Positions 10,191-19,983 of a stretch of 41,065 nucleotides of DNA are shown in pieces (the first letter of the stretch is position 1; every line of letters starts with the position of its first letter). Source of the stretch: Rikenellaceae bacterium DTU001. Lineage in GTDB: Bacteria > Bacteroidota > Bacteroidia > Bacteroidales > DTU049. Position numbers and translations under genes: made by a program. The notes beneath the pieces are model-generated. The model was not told the origin of the DNA and made no database searches. It was given only the letters and a program-made list of their open reading frames with translations. The stretch lies in the NCBI GenBank assembly GCA_001512885.1, contig LFSZ01000040.1:1-41065 (forward strand). The letters run 5' to 3'.

Positions 10191-11273
10191 AATCATTGTT
10201 TTACTTGAGGTAGTTTATCTATACTTTGTATTCACCAGCCGCCAATACTCATCCCACGCCCATCTGTCCGAGGATGCAAGGTTTAAAAGCCGACCAATGT
10301 CTGATTCTACCTCACTTGTCAAGTATTTATGTGTGATTACAAACCACATCAGATAGCTCTGTAAGTATTTTGTAGCCACACCTCTAAATCGCCGCAACCA
10401 AACCTTGAAATCATCTATATGCTTATCGACAACCTGTACACTGTAAACACCACGTCTAATCTGCGTTTTGTTTACAACAACTTTTTTACTTTTGGTCCCC
10501 TTCACAGCTTTTTTGAATTCCTTCTTTTGCTTCACACATATTAAGTTGCTATCTGTCACTCTATGCGATAGCTCTTCCCTTATCTGACTATTGGTTACTT
10601 TTTTGCGTCCTACGTGTTTGAATAGTAAATTACCTTCTCTGTCTGTCATTACCAGCACAGCTACTTTGGGATGTTTCTTTTTCTTTGCTTTTTTGTATTC
10701 TTTTCGGTTTCTGTATTTGCGACCTTTTTCTGAATATTTCATTAGCAGCTCATCAGCTTCTACAATGCCTGAGAAGCTGATACCACCCTGTAATGATTTG
10801 ATCGCTGCTAGTATCTTGTGTCGCCAATTGAAACTTGTTCTCAGACTTATGCCTACCTCCGATGCGCAAGCTCTTAGACTTTTGCCTTCTAGCATGCATT
10901 TTAGGTATTCGAGCATTTTATCAGCTTTTCGCATGCGATATACGAAGGTTCTAGCTGTTTCGCGGTATTGTCGGCCACAATCTTTGCATTTGTACACTTG
11001 TTTGCCATCACGCACTCCTGCTTTTATCACATTTTCGCTTTCGCATCTAGGACAGATGGGGGCTGTGCTTTGTATTTTTAGCTTCTGATAATCTACGGCT
11101 GTGTAGTTGTTTTCTAATAAAAATTGATATAGATTATCTAGGAATCTACGTTTCTGCTCTTTGGGTAGAGCTTGATAATCTAATAGATTAAAATTATCCA
11201 TAATTATTTTTTTGTAAAATTAAATAAAAATTATTTAATGGTCATATAAAATACGTAAAGTAAAACAATAATT
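10191..11273 (-). mobile_element. IS1595-family insertion sequence
   Basis: A single transposase gene is flanked by imperfect terminal inverted repeats. Left 10191-10206 reads AATCATTGTTTTACTT; the complement of right 11258-11273 reads AATTATTGTTTTACTT (15 of 16 match). Similarity continues inward to about 28 bases with roughly 24 matches and overlaps the transposase stop codon on the left. Weak pairing (GAAA at 10185-10188 with TTTC at 11276-11279) could extend the ends outward. I could not find a convincing 8-bp target duplication, so the exact ends are uncertain and the insertion may be old. The element is visibly less AT-rich than its neighbours. Confidence 0.75.
10215..11201 (-). CDS. 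IS1595-family (ISXO2-like) transposase
   Basis: The 328-aa product has the family's layout: an N-terminal helical region, a zinc ribbon CPRCESENVIKAG...YKCKDCGRQY (about residues 50-80), a helix-turn-helix-like stretch (CMLEGKSLRACASEVGISLRT), and the DDE/DDN-type core beginning GIVEADELLMKYSEKGRK (first Asp), then VAVLVMTDREGNLLF and SHRVTDSNLICV (second Asp). The end VWLRRFRGVATKYLQSYLMWFVITHKYL is characteristic. At the position where relatives usually have NN-x-H, this copy has VDKHIDDFK, so the third catalytic residue is uncertain. The frame is intact. Codon use is richer in G and C than in flanking genes, consistent with recent arrival. Confidence 0.92.
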   Translation of the reverse strand: MDNFNLLDYQALPKEQKRRFLDNLYQFLLENNYTAVDYQKLKIQSTAPICPRCESENVIKAGVRDGKQVYKCKDCGRQYRETARTFVYRMRKADKMLEYLKCMLEGKSLRACASEVGISLRTSFNWRHKILAAIKSLQGGISFSGIVEADELLMKYSEKGRKYRNRKEYKKAKKKKHPKVAVLVMTDREGNLLFKHVGRKKVTNSQIREELSHRVTDSNLICVKQKKEFKKAVKGTKSKKVVVNKTQIRRGVYSVQVVDKHIDDFKVWLRRFRGVATKYLQSYLMWFVITHKYLTSEVESDIGRLLNLASSDRWAWDEYWRLVNTKYR

Positions 11274-13977: not shown

Positions 13978-15612
13978 ATGAAACAGATAACAGAAATAGC
14001 CGAGAATTTAGGAATTCAAGCTGATCAATTAGAACTTTATGGAAAATTTAAAGCGAAGCTTCCAATTAATCTCATAAATGAAGAGAAAGTCAAGCAATCA
14101 AAATTAGTATTAGTAACTGCGATCACGCCTACTCCCGCAGGTGAAGGCAAGACTACAACTTCTATAAGCTTATCTATGGCTTTAAATAAAATTGGGAAAA
14201 AATCTGTTGTAGCTCTGAGGGAACCTTCATTAGGGCCAGTATTTGGAATAAAAGGTGGAGCCACTGGAGGAGGATTGTCCCAAGTATTACCTACAGATGA
14301 TATAAATTTACTTTTCACAGGTGATATACCTGCAATAGAAAGAGCTAATAATCTTTTGTCTGCATTAATAGATAATAATCTTCAAAGTAAAAATAGAAAT
14401 TTGAATTTAGATTCTAGAACTATTCATTGGAATAGAGTGATGGATATGAATGATAGAGCTTTGAGAGATATTGTTATCGGATTAGGTGGCATCTCTAATG
14501 GCATACCAAGAGAATCATCTTTTGAAATCACTGCTGCTAGTGAAGTCATGGCTATACTAGGTATGACAGATAGCATTAGTGACCTTAAAGAAAGATTAGG
14601 CAATATATTTGTCGGATTAACTTGGGATAAAAAACCAATTTTTGCAAGAGATTTGAATGCGCAAGGAGCAATGGCCGCTTTATTAAAAGATGCTATAAAT
14701 CCTAATTTAGTGCAAACCACAGAAGGCACGCCAGCTATCATACATTGTGGCCCTTTTGCTAATATAGCTCAAGGTACTAATAGTATTTTAGCAACAAAAA
14801 TGGCAATGACTTATAGCGATGTTGTAATTACTGAAGCTGGATTTGGTTCTGATTTGGGAGCAGAAAAATTCTTTGATATAAAATGTCAGAGATTTGGTTT
14901 GATGCCTAATGCTGTCGTTATAGTGGTTACTATTAGGGCTTTAAAATATCACGGTGGTGCTTCAAAAGATGAATTATTTATTCCTAATGTAGATTTAGTA
15001 AAAAAAGGATTAGAAAATTTGGATAAACATATTGAAAATATGATGATGTTTAACTTTAAACCTATTATAGCTCTTAATAAATTTGATACAGACTCAGAAG
15101 CTGAAATAGATATAGTAAGGCAACATTGCAAAGAATATGGTGTTTTGATGTCAATTAATGAAGGTTTTAATAAGGGTAGTGAAGGTGCTATAGATCTAGC
15201 TGAAAAAGTAATAGAGAGTACTAGCTATTGTCCAAATTGTTTCAAACCCATTTATACTTATGATTTATCTATTGAAGATAAAATAAATACTATATGTAAA
15301 AATATTTATGGTGCTAAAGATGTGGAATATTCTCTAAAAGCTCGTAAAGATCTTGAACTAATTAAAATGTTAAATTTAGAAAATTCCCCTGTGTGTATTG
15401 CTAAAACTCAATATTCATTATCAGATAATCCTAATCTGAGAGGTAGACCTAAAGATTTTATTTTAAACATAAGAGAAATAGAAATATCTACTGGCGCTGG
15501 TTTTGTAGTCCCTATTGCAGGTGCCATTATGCGTATGCCAGGACTACCTGAGCAACCATCTGCCGAAAAAATAGATATCGACATTGATGGCAAAATACAT
15601 GGCATCAGCTAA
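13978..15612 (+). CDS. fhs: Formate--tetrahydrofolate ligase
   Basis: The enzyme uses ATP to join formate to tetrahydrofolate, giving 10-formyl-THF for purine and other one-carbon reactions. The 544-aa protein matches the family throughout: the P-loop PTPAGEGKT (residues 51-59), EPSLGPVFGIKGGATGGG, NNLLSALIDN, TWDKKPIFARDLNAQGAMA, CGPFANIAQGTNS, EAGFGSDLGAEKFFDIKC, and the C-terminal GAGFVVPIAGAIMRMPGLPEQPSAE. purN, which uses 10-formyl-THF, lies about 3.2 kb away on the other strand but is not linked in an operon. A 10-bp AT-only inverted repeat (15618-15627/15636-15645) follows the stop. Confidence 0.97.
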   Translation: MKQITEIAENLGIQADQLELYGKFKAKLPINLINEEKVKQSKLVLVTAITPTPAGEGKTTTSISLSMALNKIGKKSVVALREPSLGPVFGIKGGATGGGLSQVLPTDDINLLFTGDIPAIERANNLLSALIDNNLQSKNRNLNLDSRTIHWNRVMDMNDRALRDIVIGLGGISNGIPRESSFEITAASEVMAILGMTDSISDLKERLGNIFVGLTWDKKPIFARDLNAQGAMAALLKDAINPNLVQTTEGTPAIIHCGPFANIAQGTNSILATKMAMTYSDVVITEAGFGSDLGAEKFFDIKCQRFGLMPNAVVIVVTIRALKYHGGASKDELFIPNVDLVKKGLENLDKHIENMMMFNFKPIIALNKFDTDSEAEIDIVRQHCKEYGVLMSINEGFNKGSEGAIDLAEKVIESTSYCPNCFKPIYTYDLSIEDKINTICKNIYGAKDVEYSLKARKDLELIKMLNLENSPVCIAKTQYSLSDNPNLRGRPKDFILNIREIEISTGAGFVVPIAGAIMRMPGLPEQPSAEKIDIDIDGKIHGIS

Positions 15613-15643
15613 ATTATATTTTTATAAATAGCCGATTATAAAA

Positions 15644-16234
15644 ATGAATATTTATAGAATAACACAGGATAATGACACTCTTATTATTTCTTATTCTCCT
15701 AAAGAAAAATTGTATCGGATATACTTCAATGATGATAAAATAGGTGATATATCAAAGGAATCAATGAAAAATGGTGTCGATTTAGACTTAGAAAATAAAA
15801 AAATAAAGCTTAGCCTTAATGGAAAATATTCTAATAGACCTTTTATTATATACAATGATAAAATTTATTCTGGTGAGCAAGAAGCCAAGAAAAGATATAA
15901 GATCAATTTGAGTTTTTTTTTGCTTTGGTTTATTCTAGAGCTCATAGGAGCTATTTGGAGTTATGTTAATTATAATACTGTGTCTTTCTATATTATTTTT
16001 ATTTTAGTTAGTAGTTTGGTTGGTATTTTTATATGTTTTTATTTAAAAAAAAATATTAGTCATAAAGTATATTTAATCATACCACTAATATTCGCTATGC
16101 AGATAGTTACTAATATATCTGTAAATATGATACTTACTGTTTTTGATCTTATATTTATTAGTGTTTTTTTATATTGTATATGGGAATATTCGTTTACTAA
16201 AAATTTTTCTAAATTTGTACTAAAAAAATCATAG
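15644..16234 (+). CDS. Unrecognised membrane protein with soluble N-terminus and four predicted transmembrane helices
   Basis: No family is recognised. The 196-aa protein has a charged, beta-like N-terminal part (residues 1-85, e.g. KLYRIYFNDDKIGDIS and KIKLSLNGKY) and then four hydrophobic segments at about 86-107, 112-133, 141-161 and 162-183, ending in a short basic tail. It starts 31 bases after fhs and is followed four bases later by a zinc-ribbon gene, so the three are probably co-transcribed. Its ATG (15644) sits at the 3' edge of an AT-only inverted repeat (arms 15618-15627 and 15636-15645), which could weakly fold over the start; this is inference. Confidence 0.7.
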   Translation: MNIYRITQDNDTLIISYSPKEKLYRIYFNDDKIGDISKESMKNGVDLDLENKKIKLSLNGKYSNRPFIIYNDKIYSGEQEAKKRYKINLSFFLLWFILELIGAIWSYVNYNTVSFYIIFILVSSLVGIFICFYLKKNISHKVYLIIPLIFAMQIVTNISVNMILTVFDLIFISVFLYCIWEYSFTKNFSKFVLKKS

Positions 16235-16238
16235 TACC

Positions 16239-16613
16239 ATGACAGAGAGATGTTGTCTAGAATGCGGAGAACCATTAGTAGGTCGTTCAGATAAAAAATT
16301 TTGTGATGATCAATGTCGTAATGCTTATAATAATAGATTAAATAGAGATTCTATAAATATTTATAGAAAAATTAATAACAAATTAAGAAAAAATAGAAGG
16401 ATTATATCCGAACTCAATAAAACTGGTAAAACAAAAATAAAAATTGAAGCATTAAGAAAAAAAGGTTTTGATTTTAAATATCATACACATATTTTGAACA
16501 CTGCTAAAGGTACAACTTATTTTTTTTGCTATGATATGGGGTATCTGATTATAGATAATGAATATGCTCTTTTAGTTTATGATAAAGAAATAAAAGAAGA
16601 TGATAATAAATAA
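16239..16613 (+). CDS. Small zinc-ribbon protein, unknown function
   Basis: The 124-aa product begins MTERCCLECGEPLVGRSDKKFC-DDQC, with Cys at positions 5, 6, 9, 22 and 26: a Cys-x2-Cys...Cys-x3-Cys zinc-ribbon knuckle resembling DUF2116-like small proteins of Bacteroidota. A basic helical stretch follows (YRKINNKLRKNRRIISELNK, about 41-60) and then a beta-rich end (HTHILNTAKGTTYFFCYDMGYLIIDNEYALLVY). Such proteins are annotated as hypothetical; nucleic-acid binding is plausible from the zinc knuckle and basic helix but unproven. It follows the membrane-protein gene by four bases. Confidence 0.75.
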   Translation: MTERCCLECGEPLVGRSDKKFCDDQCRNAYNNRLNRDSINIYRKINNKLRKNRRIISELNKTGKTKIKIEALRKKGFDFKYHTHILNTAKGTTYFFCYDMGYLIIDNEYALLVYDKEIKEDDNK

Positions 16614-16708
16614 TTAATTTTAATTGAACATCTTTTTTTTTAATTAGCAATCAATAATCTAGGATTTACCTTTTTCAATAATTTAATTTCAAATAAAAAT
16701 TTTAATCT

Positions 16709-16716
16709 TATTTTTG
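16709..16716 (+). promoter_or_regulatory. -7 element TATTTTTG for the kinase-like/deaminase fusion
   Basis: TATTTTTG (TAnnTTTG) ends nine bases before ATG 16725, implying a leader of only about four bases and therefore no room for a ribosome-binding site or 5' UTR regulator. Confidence 0.5.
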
Positions 16717-16724
16717 TAAAAAAA

Positions 16725-17816
16725 ATGATAGTAATAGGCCTAACAGGTACAATAGGGGCAGGTAAGGATACAGTGGTAGATTATCTGATTAAAAATGAAA
16801 ATTTTGAGCATTTTAGTGTTCGTAAATTTTTGATTAAAGAACTTAAAATACGGAAAATTCCAGTTAATAGAGATACTATGAGACAATTAGCTAATGAACT
16901 TAGAGAAAAAAATGGTGCATCATATATTGTAGAAAAATTATACTCAGAAGCTATAAAAACAAAAAAAAATGCGATAATAGAAAGTATACGTACGGTAGGT
17001 GAAGTAGAAGCATTGAAAAAAAATGATAATTTTTTTTTAATAGCTATCGATGCTGATCCTAAAATAAGATACGAACGTATTCGTCAGCGAGGGTCAGAGA
17101 CAGATGATATAGATTATGCTACCTTCATTGCACAAGAAAATGAAGAAATGAAAAATGAAGATCCTAATAAGCAAAATATAAGTAAATGCATAGAATTAGC
17201 TGATTATTACATAGAAAACAATGGGACCTTTCAGCAATTATATGATCAGGTGGATGCCATAATGAAAGAAATAAAGGAAAAAATTGAAAGTAAAGAAAAA
17301 GGATACATTTACCAAAGACCTAGCTGGGATGAATATTTTATCGAAATCATGAATACTGTAGCTACAAGGGCTACATGTGATAGAGGTAGAGCTGGTTGCG
17401 TGATAGTAAAAGATAAACGTATTTTAGTAACTGGCTATGTAGGTGCTCCCAGTGGGTTGCCACATTGTGATGAAGTTGGTCATTTATTCAGAAAGATTAT
17501 TCACGAAGATGGTTCTATCACCCAACATTGTGTGAGGACCGTACATGCCGAACAAAATGCTATTGCACAAGCAGCACGCTTTGGTATTTCTTTAGAAGGA
17601 TCTACTTTATACGTCAGAATGACCCCATGTCGCTCATGTGCAATGTTGATCATAAATAGTGGCATCAAACGCGTTGTCTGTGAATACAGGTATCATGCAG
17701 GCAAAGATAGTGAAGACCTTTTTAAAGAAGCAAATATAGAAATTTATTTTATAAATGATGAAATATTATCATATGAAAATCAAATAATTAATAAAAAAAA
17801 TGAAGTTAATGATTAA
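16725..17816 (+). CDS. P-loop kinase-like domain fused to a deoxycytidylate (dCMP) deaminase
   Basis: The 363-aa protein has two domains. Residues 1 to about 195 form a P-loop nucleotide-kinase-like (dephospho-CoA-kinase-related) domain: Walker A GTIGAGKD (8-15, Lys14), IIESIRTVGEVEALKK, FFLIAIDADPKIRYERIRQRG, and AQENEEMKNEDPNKQNISKCIELADYYIENNGTF. Residues about 200-350 are a dCMP deaminase: RPSWDEYFIEIM, GCVIVKDKRILVTGYVGAPSGLPHC, the zinc/proton-shuttle site H274-A-E276 and zinc ligands P-C302-RS-C305. All expected deaminase ligands are present. Deaminating dCMP to dUMP feeds dTMP synthesis. The same domain order (kinase-like then deaminase) occurs in AvcD/DcdV phage-defence deaminases, which are longer (about 530 aa), and in the yeast dCMP deaminase. 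Whether this one is metabolic or defensive cannot be told from sequence alone. Confidence 0.88.
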   Translation: MIVIGLTGTIGAGKDTVVDYLIKNENFEHFSVRKFLIKELKIRKIPVNRDTMRQLANELREKNGASYIVEKLYSEAIKTKKNAIIESIRTVGEVEALKKNDNFFLIAIDADPKIRYERIRQRGSETDDIDYATFIAQENEEMKNEDPNKQNISKCIELADYYIENNGTFQQLYDQVDAIMKEIKEKIESKEKGYIYQRPSWDEYFIEIMNTVATRATCDRGRAGCVIVKDKRILVTGYVGAPSGLPHCDEVGHLFRKIIHEDGSITQHCVRTVHAEQNAIAQAARFGISLEGSTLYVRMTPCRSCAMLIINSGIKRVVCEYRYHAGKDSEDLFKEANIEIYFINDEILSYENQIINKKNEVND

Positions 17817-17882
17817 ATACATAAAATATAAATCTTTATAAAAAAATTTATTATTTAAATATTGCTGATCACCATAAATCTA

Positions 17883-18806
17883 TTATGATTTATATTTATT
17901 TTTGATAAAATTTACATTCTTCATTAATACGGAATCATTTAAAAGGTATAAAGGAAATTTTGAGATCCCTGTTCCCCAATTTTTTAATTCTTGTTTTTCT
18001 TGTTCATCAAATAAAAAATCTTTAATCGGTGTTATCTGAGGATTATTATTATAAGGACATTTTTTTTGGCAAATATCACAACCATAAATATATGGTACAA
18101 GTTTTTTTACTTGGTGCAAACTATTATTATCACTTTTTTCTATTGTAAGATAAGAAATACATTGACTTGCATTCAATACTTTAGGTGATATCAATGCTTG
18201 AGTTGGGCAAGCTTTAAGGCAATTAGTGCAATTACCACATTTATTTTTTAATGGATTTTTTAATGCATCTGGAGGTGCTTTTAGTGAAGTGAAAATATGA
18301 ACTATGAATACAAAGCTACCATATTTTTCATTTATCAATAAAGTATTTTTACCTATAAATCCCAAACCTGCTTTCCAAGCCCAATATTTATCAATAACAG
18401 GTGCTGAATCCACAAAAATTCTAGGTCTGAAATTAGCGTCTAATTGTTTTAAAAAATTTACTACTGGTATAGATATTGATTTTGCAAGAGTATGATAATC
18501 TTTTTTAGTAACATAAATGCTAATCTTTTCTGCCCACTCAGCAGGAAATATTTGATAATATGGTAAGAGAAAAGTGATAATACTTTGAGTGCCAGGATAC
18601 AGTGTAGTAGGGGAGAAACGTTTTTCTAAATTCCTTTCTAAATACTTCATATCCCCATTATAATGAGATTGTAAATATGCTAAAAAATTTCCTTTAACAA
18701 TTTCAGGCACTTCATCAGATTCGCTAATGCCAACTTCACTTATAGATTGTTTAATAAAAATTTGTTTTATTTTTTGCCATTCATGATCAGTAAGATAATT
18801 AGACAT
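17883..18806 (-). CDS. queG: Epoxyqueuosine reductase
   Basis: QueG carries out the last step of queuosine synthesis, reducing epoxyqueuosine in tRNA with a cobalamin cofactor and two [4Fe-4S] clusters. Seen: FVDSAPVIDKYWAWKAGLGFIGKN (residues 132-154), the ferredoxin-like motif C190-GN-C193-TN-C196-LKA-C200-P, C216, and C243-DI-C246-QKK-C250-P. ATG 18806 is preferred (307 aa); the frame also opens at TTG 18812, two codons earlier. Length is at the short end because the C-terminal HEAT-like extension of some QueG proteins is absent. It is the third gene of the PEBP-purN-queG run (31 bases from purN). Confidence 0.95.
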   Translation of the reverse strand: MSNYLTDHEWQKIKQIFIKQSISEVGISESDEVPEIVKGNFLAYLQSHYNGDMKYLERNLEKRFSPTTLYPGTQSIITFLLPYYQIFPAEWAEKISIYVTKKDYHTLAKSISIPVVNFLKQLDANFRPRIFVDSAPVIDKYWAWKAGLGFIGKNTLLINEKYGSFVFIVHIFTSLKAPPDALKNPLKNKCGNCTNCLKACPTQALISPKVLNASQCISYLTIEKSDNNSLHQVKKLVPYIYGCDICQKKCPYNNNPQITPIKDFLFDEQEKQELKNWGTGISKFPLYLLNDSVLMKNVNFIKNKYKS

Positions 18807-18837
18807 TTTCAATAAATTAAATTGGTTTTGTTAAAAT

Positions 18838-19416
18838 TTAAGTAAATAATTCATTTATGTATTTTTCGATAACTATAGGATAATATTCATACTCCAATTT
18901 GTGAATTTTTTCAGCCAATGTATCAGGAGTATCTGTTGAGTCGATAGAAATGGTTTTTTGAAAAATTATATGTCCCTCATCATAGTTTTCGTTTACCAAA
19001 TGAATACTAATACCCGATGTTTTTTCATTATTAGCTATTACATTTTCATGTACCTTAGAACCATACATGCCTTTACCACCATATTTTGGTAAAAGGGCAG
19101 GGTGTATGTTTAATATTTTATCAGGATATTTTTTTATTAAATCTGCTGGTATAGCCCTTAAATAGCCAGCTAAAATGATTATATTTATATTGAAAGTTTC
19201 ACAAAGCCTAATTAAAAAACTTCCGTCACTAGCTAAAATATTATCTATTACCACTATCGGAACATTAAAATTTATAAATCTATCAATAACTCCAGCTCGC
19301 CTATTATTAGTTAATAAAAGGCTAACAAAAATATTTTGATTACCATCAAAATAATGATAAATATTTTCAGCATTACTACCATTACCAGAAGCAAAAATTG
19401 CAAGATTTACATGCAT
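18838..19416 (-). CDS. purN: Phosphoribosylglycinamide (GAR) formyltransferase
   Basis: PurN transfers the formyl group of 10-formyl-THF to GAR, the third step of purine synthesis. The 192-aa protein has the N-terminal phosphate-binding loop FASGNGSNAENI (residues 8-19), ILAGYLRAIPADLI (81-94), the catalytic block ILNIHPALLPKYGGKGMYG (101-119, including N103 and H105), and VNENYDEGHIIFQKT with the conserved Asp. It is a complete, normal-length enzyme. It lies 21 bases after the PEBP gene. Confidence 0.96.
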   Translation of the reverse strand: MHVNLAIFASGNGSNAENIYHYFDGNQNIFVSLLLTNNRRAGVIDRFINFNVPIVVIDNILASDGSFLIRLCETFNINIIILAGYLRAIPADLIKKYPDKILNIHPALLPKYGGKGMYGSKVHENVIANNEKTSGISIHLVNENYDEGHIIFQKTISIDSTDTPDTLAEKIHKLEYEYYPIVIEKYINELFT

Positions 19417-19437
19417 ATTAATAATTTTTGAGTTTAT

Positions 19438-19983
19438 TTAGTTTCTACTATACTTGCCCATTATTTGTCCTTGAGCTATTATGTGGCCTTCTATTTCTTT
19501 TAAAAGTTCAGCTTTTTTTTTGCCAGGTTCTAAATTTAACATAGTATCTAATGCATAGAGCTTAAAATAATATCTATGAGTGCCACTCGGCGGACAAGGA
19601 CCTCCATAGCCATATTTACGAAAATCATTGACTCCATGTTTAGCTCCACTAGGCAATATTTTTTCGGGTAGTATGTTTTCTGGTAATTCTTTAATCATAG
19701 GTGGAATGTCGTAAAGCACCCAATGAACAAAAGTCCCCATAGGAGCATCTGGGTCATCACATATCAGAGCTAAAGACTTGGTGCCCTCTGGTATATTTTC
19801 CCATGAAATCTGAGGCGATACATTAGCACCATCACAAGTATATTTACTTGGTATCATGCCCCCATCAATAAATGACTTGCTTTTTACTATTATCTCTTTT
19901 GACATAAGTGATTTATTTTTACATTGGTTTGAGCTGAAAATAATGCAAAAAATTATTAATGATATTGAAATTGCATTTTTCAT
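19438..19983 (-). CDS. YbhB/YbcL-family (PEBP, Raf-kinase-inhibitor-like) exported protein
   Basis: The 181-aa protein has an N-terminal signal (MKNAISISLIIFCIIFSSNQC) with a Cys at 21 that may be lipidated, though the preceding residues are a poor lipobox. The rest is a bacterial phosphatidylethanolamine-binding-protein fold: SFIDGGMIPSKYTCDGANVSPQISW, LALICDDPDAPMGTFVHWVLYDIP (the DPDAP and HW motifs of the ligand pocket), GAKHGVNDFRKYGYGGPCPPSGTHRYYFKLYALD and the C-terminal EGHIIAQGQIMGKY. The natural ligand of these bacterial proteins is not established. It is the first gene of a run with purN and queG, and no functional link is evident. Confidence 0.92.
   Translation of the reverse strand: MKNAISISLIIFCIIFSSNQCKNKSLMSKEIIVKSKSFIDGGMIPSKYTCDGANVSPQISWENIPEGTKSLALICDDPDAPMGTFVHWVLYDIPPMIKELPENILPEKILPSGAKHGVNDFRKYGYGGPCPPSGTHRYYFKLYALDTMLNLEPGKKKAELLKEIEGHIIAQGQIMGKYSRN

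Follow-up and report, generated by a model that had tools for sequence, protein, structure and literature searches.

One gene in the window (the whole stretch of 41,065 nucleotides analysed here) encodes a protein in which a P-loop kinase-like domain precedes a deaminase of the dCMP family, and it raises the question of whether such a fusion serves defence against phages or the metabolism of nucleotides. The initial annotation left room for two readings, a compact relative of the AvcD/DcdV defence proteins and a dCMP deaminase with a housekeeping role. We conclude that the gene very probably belongs to housekeeping nucleotide metabolism, and that CMP kinase, which would be expected in Bacteroidales, appears to be absent from roughly one in three of the genomes sampled. 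A literature search did not find a paper on a kinase-deaminase fusion of this kind. In what follows, genomes that carry the kinase-deaminase system are called type B, and those in which an ordinary dCMP deaminase occurs without a kinase half are called type A.

Domains of the fused protein

The open reading frame starts with ATG and yields a product of 363 residues (P0001; Table 1), in which Pfam places AAA_18 at residues 4-142 (49.6 bits, cut-off 29.4) and dCMP_cyt_deam_1 (PF00383) at residues 200-319 (91.8 bits, cut-off 25). Both sites reported in the initial annotation were confirmed in this one protein, namely the Walker A sequence GTIGAGKD at residues 8-15 of the N-terminal kinase-like domain and a complete deaminase site in the C-terminal domain, with H274, E276, C302 and C305 in HAE and PCxxC motifs. 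Ten further fused proteins, with identities of 59-83%, conserve both halves, so the fusion is not a product of chance. The AlphaFold model, built from a 77-row alignment, has a mean pLDDT of 86.5 but a pTM of only 0.55; thus each domain can be trusted, but not their placement relative to one another.

Table 1. Features of the fused gene and its upstream region, in window coordinates
Feature	Position	Strand	Basis
TATTTTTG, candidate Bacteroidota -7 element, 8 nt before ATG	16709..16716	+	seen in sequence
Fused NMP-kinase-like / dCMP-family deaminase gene	16725..17816	+	ORF, Pfam domains, AlphaFold model
Kinase half, residues 1-185; proposed (d)CMP kinase with an adenylate-kinase-related / UPF0200-like fold	16725..17279	+	VIA-align, hmmsearch to 3lw7
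Walker A GTIGAGKD, residues 8-15	16746..16769	+	pattern GxxGxGKx[ST]
R89...E93, NMP-binding-like motif (ESIRxxxE)	16989..17003	+	conserved in kinase rows
Deaminase half, residues 198-345	17316..17759	+	Pfam PF00383 at 200-319; VIA-align
A223 (AGC; mostly S in orthologues); V or I (VGA/IGA) in almost all the rest of the family; matches T4 Val24 by motif	17391..17393	+	motif comparison
V239 (GYVG); Asn in almost all the rest of the family, including AvcD; matches T4 Asn40 by motif	17439..17441	+	motif comparison
Zinc site H274-A-E276 ... P-C302-x-x-C305	17544..17639	+	invariant in fused set and all type-B rows

The kinase half of the predicted model superposes on the Sulfolobus adenylate-kinase-related protein 3lw7 (VIA-align Z 21.4, rmsd 1.9 over 167 residues, 25% identity), which it also matches by hmmsearch (E 2.4e-11), and the UMP/CMP kinase 2ukd was also among the Foldseek matches to a first structural model. 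The Walker A pattern is intact in all 58 kinase-bearing rows of the type-B alignment, and E86, S87, R89 and E93 are invariant across 22 kinase rows. Together, the intact Walker A motif and the predicted fold point to a P-loop NMP kinase. The arginine followed after three residues by glutamate is common to the kinase half, the AMP-bound archaeal structure 3lw7/SSO1041 and the AvcD sequences, and therefore does not fix base specificity. Proteins of the UPF0200, or adenylate-kinase-related, group (SSO1041, 3lw7, 3h0k) resemble the kinase half in fold and in an ESIRxxxE-like motif, but they are archaeal and stand-alone, the solved entry being without a deaminase partner, and we know of no function for them. 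The bacterial cytidylate kinase profile (PF02224, Cmk) has no match in the window's genome, and the kinase half scores far under the cut-off of the archaeal (d)CMP kinase model TIGR02173 (24.7 against 102.1 bits); although the reaction proposed below is that of Cmk, the kinase half represents a different subfamily of P-loop NMP kinases. Among viral contigs, the kinase profile gave 46 pattern matches and no relatives, and a phage search gave one distant match, a Moorella phage deoxynucleoside monophosphate kinase (26%). The top viral fold match, which may concern either half of the fusion, is BFVD G8DGT5, a protein of 328 residues with 180 aligned columns, 39% identity and rmsd 1.6.

In the same predicted model, the deaminase half superposes on the Streptococcus mutans dCMP deaminase structures 2hvw and 5c2o (VIA-align Z 21.9 and 21.5, rmsd 1.4), and the ComEB / dCMP deaminase family as a whole (these entries, T4 1vq2 and human DCTD 2w4l) shares its fold at Z 18-22 and has the full zinc site. 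The HxE...PCxxC site and the modelled fold argue for membership of this family; the score against the ComEB equivalog model, 116.6 bits, does not reach the cut-off of 219.45. The fusion is set apart from the family by its constant kinase partner and by its pocket. Read by motif, all 105 sequences of type-B deaminases show [SA]GC and GYVG, whereas the other dCMP-family deaminases read, AvcD included, have with few exceptions [VI]GA and an asparagine at the GYNG position; the split is broken by the divergent paired gene of L125, which reads VGA/GYNG, and by one phage gene with GYAG. In T4 dCMP deaminase, Val24 and Asn40 contact the dC moiety, and dCDP is preferred by some bacterial 'dCMP deaminases' (PMC12697855). 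The equivalent residues in type B, matched by motif and not by structure, are A/S223 and V239, so that the type-B substrate may differ; judged from these motifs, the altered pocket weakens the assignment to dCMP. The contig of L125 (JAQTRH010000027.1), on which the kinase adjoins the divergent GYNG-type deaminase, is binned as Candidatus Nanoarchaeia; it is probably misbinned, and the pair may be an intermediate form.

Relationship to the AvcD/DcdV defence proteins

We consider it very improbable that the gene encodes a compact AvcD/DcdV-type anti-phage dCTP/dCMP deaminase. The likeness proposed in the initial annotation holds only as distant homology of both halves: the order of the domains is identical, the PADLOC dCTPase profile (PDLC02373) matches the fusion colinearly over both domains (residues 2-318, E 4.4e-48), and the kinase half aligns at 23% identity with an anti-phage dCTP deaminase of E. 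coli. Membership of the group does not hold, as the fusion scores 118.5 bits against the 400-bit cut-off of NCBIfam NF041025, which two control proteins clear (L165, 446.3; L189, 503.9). The Walker A motif that is intact throughout the type-B kinases is degenerate in all eight AvcD proteins, which lack GxGK[ST] and read GRTGSGC, GQLGTNLQ, GAVGTELT and similar. The AvcD proteins that we fetched have 501-627 residues, in agreement with the figure of about 530 given earlier, and they differ from the fusion further in keeping the asparagine of GYN/GWN and in being sporadic, a true AvcD scoring above the cut-off in just one of 295 Bacteroidales genomes.

In a tree of deaminase domains the fusion protein falls outside the AvcD branch (support 98/93) and within a type-B branch (95/82); because the tree is unrooted, however, a grouping of type B with AvcD as neighbours is not rejected (p-AU 0.48). 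It is possible that AvcD descended from a metabolic kinase-deaminase pair of the type-B kind. The ten neighbours of the window gene include none with a PADLOC match; those identified are housekeeping genes, coding for a Kdo transferase, a formate-THF ligase (by reading), QueG and a formyl transferase. No Rfam match was found in 15000-19500, the 111-nt intergenic gap upstream of the gene (16614-16724) included, although Rfam may hold no model of AvcI. The octamer TATTTTTG in this gap matches the Bacteroidota -7 consensus TAnnTTTG and, as read from the sequence, would fit a near-leaderless transcript. The PADLOC dCTPase model itself calls for caution, because an ordinary Bacteroidales dCMP deaminase scores 114 bits against 163 for the fusion, and calls made at a low threshold would be false positives.

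Occurrence of the pair and of cytidylate kinase

The window's genome is a 1.9-Mb Bacteroidales MAG (98% complete). Its PF00383 matches, named from their sequences, are the fusion, TadA, a guanine-deaminase-like protein, RibD and a cytidine deaminase, the last recognized by CAE and PCGxC motifs. None of these PF00383 matches is a second dCMP-type deaminase, unfused or otherwise; this favours the housekeeping side of the initial annotation. Within the window's own family, of which 12 or so genomes were sampled, only G298, a MAG of 71% completeness, is without the gene, and another member (G296) has the deaminase half only, at a contig end. The expectation that orthologues would hold the same locus across the order was thus borne out as to presence throughout the family and failed as to synteny, as none of the genes beside the window gene keeps its place across Bacteroidales. 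Such constancy in a family is a further point against a defence role.

Among the 295 Bacteroidales genomes in our sample, 98 carry the system. It is fused in 20 and divided between two open reading frames in 74; in the other four, all MAGs of 70-92% completeness, one half was found. A further genome (G580), with a far weaker match at 1e-30 and with cytidylate kinase present, was left out of the 98. Relatives with names come nearly all from Bacteroidales MAGs, including Rikenellaceae bacterium DTU049 and Lentimicrobiaceae. The split genes are often neighbours, with the kinase first as in the fusion and overlaps of 4-14 nt, and sometimes lie on different contigs. The 20 fusions are spread over 11 families, and six families (f54, f64, f83, f100, f135 and f156) contain both fused and split members, which indicates that fusion or fission has recurred. 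Outside Bacteroidales, the kinase profile found nothing comparable. The best match there (E 4.8e-16) belongs to a pair in another Bacteroidota lineage (G180; L186 995-2037), in which distant kinase and dCMP deaminase genes overlap by 4 nt in the order seen in the fusion; this pair is unlike type B in the weakness of that match and in that its genome retains cmk.

CMP kinase is nearly universal in bacteria. We found that PF02224 is present in none of the 98 genomes with the system and in 179 of the 197 without it; at a completeness of at least 95% the counts are 0/58 and 131/134 respectively (P about 2e-56 for cmk against the system by Fisher's exact test, which treats genomes as independent, as they are not). 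Among 71 near-complete genomes, all 33 of type A have PF02224 (E 1e-61 to 1e-71) and all 38 of type B are without a real match, as are eight additional genomes of the window's family, which also do not have cmk; outside Bacteroidales, cmk was found in 66 of 68 genomes. None of the sampled families mixes the two states, among genomes in which either cmk or the pair was found. The correlation is complete, yet a single ancestral replacement may explain it; an attempt to count transitions on an adenylate-kinase tree was defeated by paralogy and by support that was too weak.

Three Bacteroidales genomes, G403 (98% complete), G395 (1.2 Mb, 99%) and G356 (95%), have neither cmk nor the pair at the thresholds used, and G271, a near-complete Bacteroidota genome, is without PF02224 at 1e-15 and without the type-B kinase. 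Other candidates for the missing kinase were rejected. Thymidylate kinase (PF02223) shows no split between types A and B and is present in the window's genome, where PF13189 has only a partial match of 52 residues, being sporadic elsewhere. Adenylate kinase is present in 71 of 71 near-complete genomes; its duplicated form fails as a CMP kinase, as the tandem occurs in some type-B genomes and one of type A, and the window's genome has a single copy. These tandem proteins, with two adenylate kinase domains in one open reading frame of about 390-400 residues, are found in many type-B genomes (among them G301, G303, G326, G333, G340, G346, G390, G438, G423, G498, G574 and G383) and in the type-A genome G337, and their second domain forms a separate branch in the adenylate-kinase tree.

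Proposed function and genomic surroundings

An apparently intact NMP kinase is found exactly where the CMP/dCMP kinase is gone, with a dCMP-type deaminase as its constant partner, and this is most simply explained by a (d)CMP kinase that has been joined to a dCMP deaminase. From this pattern of presence and absence and from the fold, we lean towards the kinase half being a replacement (d)CMP kinase, bacterial CMP kinases having both CMP and dCMP as substrates (PMC3603445). The N-terminal half would act as an active NMP kinase in place of the absent enzyme, converting CMP and dCMP reversibly to CDP and dCDP, and the C-terminal half would deaminate the same cytosine nucleotide or one closely related to it, the most likely reaction being that of dCMP to dUMP, which feeds thymidylate synthesis. 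The fusion, or the overlapping neighbour genes, would then hold both competing uses of dCMP in a single unit. We infer what each half takes as its substrate, and likewise any coupling of the two. Against a replacement stand the genome that has cmk beside its distant pair (G180) and the one without either cmk or the type-B kinase (G271); moreover, cmk is dispensable in some species, with a growth defect (PMC3603445), so that its loss does not by itself call for a substitute. Should the kinase half be the replacement, it would fill a gap in the metabolic models of many bacteria from gut, rumen and sediment, assign a function to a P-loop family that is without one here, and provide the AvcD/DcdV defence architecture with a metabolic counterpart whose kinase is intact.

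It is instead conceivable, although we think it unlikely, that the deaminase half makes good the loss of cmk by turning CMP (dCMP) into UMP (dUMP), which would re-enter through UMP kinase and CTP synthase, and that the kinase half phosphorylates something else. The absence of cmk and the type-B-specific changes at the T4 Val24 and Asn40 positions are consistent with this; we know, however, of no activity on cytosine ribonucleotides in the dCMP deaminase family, and a kinase half that is itself NMP-kinase-like, with intact catalytic motifs, would be the simpler replacement. We hold it to be similarly improbable that an ordinary dCMP deaminase is coupled to a kinase-like partner with the regulatory role of a nucleotide sensor, the CMP kinase role falling to an unrelated, unrecognised gene. 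Yeast dCMP deaminase has a kinase-like N-terminus and the corresponding domain of AvcD is degenerate, both of which would suit a sensor, but the Walker A motif and the putative substrate arginines of type B are invariant, although catalytic residues would matter less to a pure sensor, and in 74 genomes the kinase half is a free protein, sometimes encoded far from the deaminase gene. Beyond a replacement (d)CMP kinase lies a broader claim, namely that one repeatedly fused module has replaced both the near-universal CMP kinase and the ordinary dCMP deaminase in a large set of Bacteroidales families, so that the two reactions of cytosine monophosphates would pass through this one unit, with a re-shaped deaminase pocket for a substrate new to the enzyme family (CMP or a (d)CDP); this we advance only tentatively, and rather doubt.

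Just upstream of the window gene lie an open reading frame for a membrane-like protein (15644-16234) and one for a short protein that begins with a Cys-rich, zinc-ribbon-like stretch (16239-16613), both without a Pfam match. An IS1595-type transposase gene is found at 10215-11201 on the minus strand, with relatives near the orthologue in L066/L085 (DTU049) and L067. In the flanks of orthologues, PurE recurs (23 loci in the cluster), as does a LOG-family gene (18 loci), LOG enzymes having nucleoside monophosphates as substrates; L134 5453-5959 and L164 5394-5996 are PurE / LOG-family examples directly upstream of the kinase.
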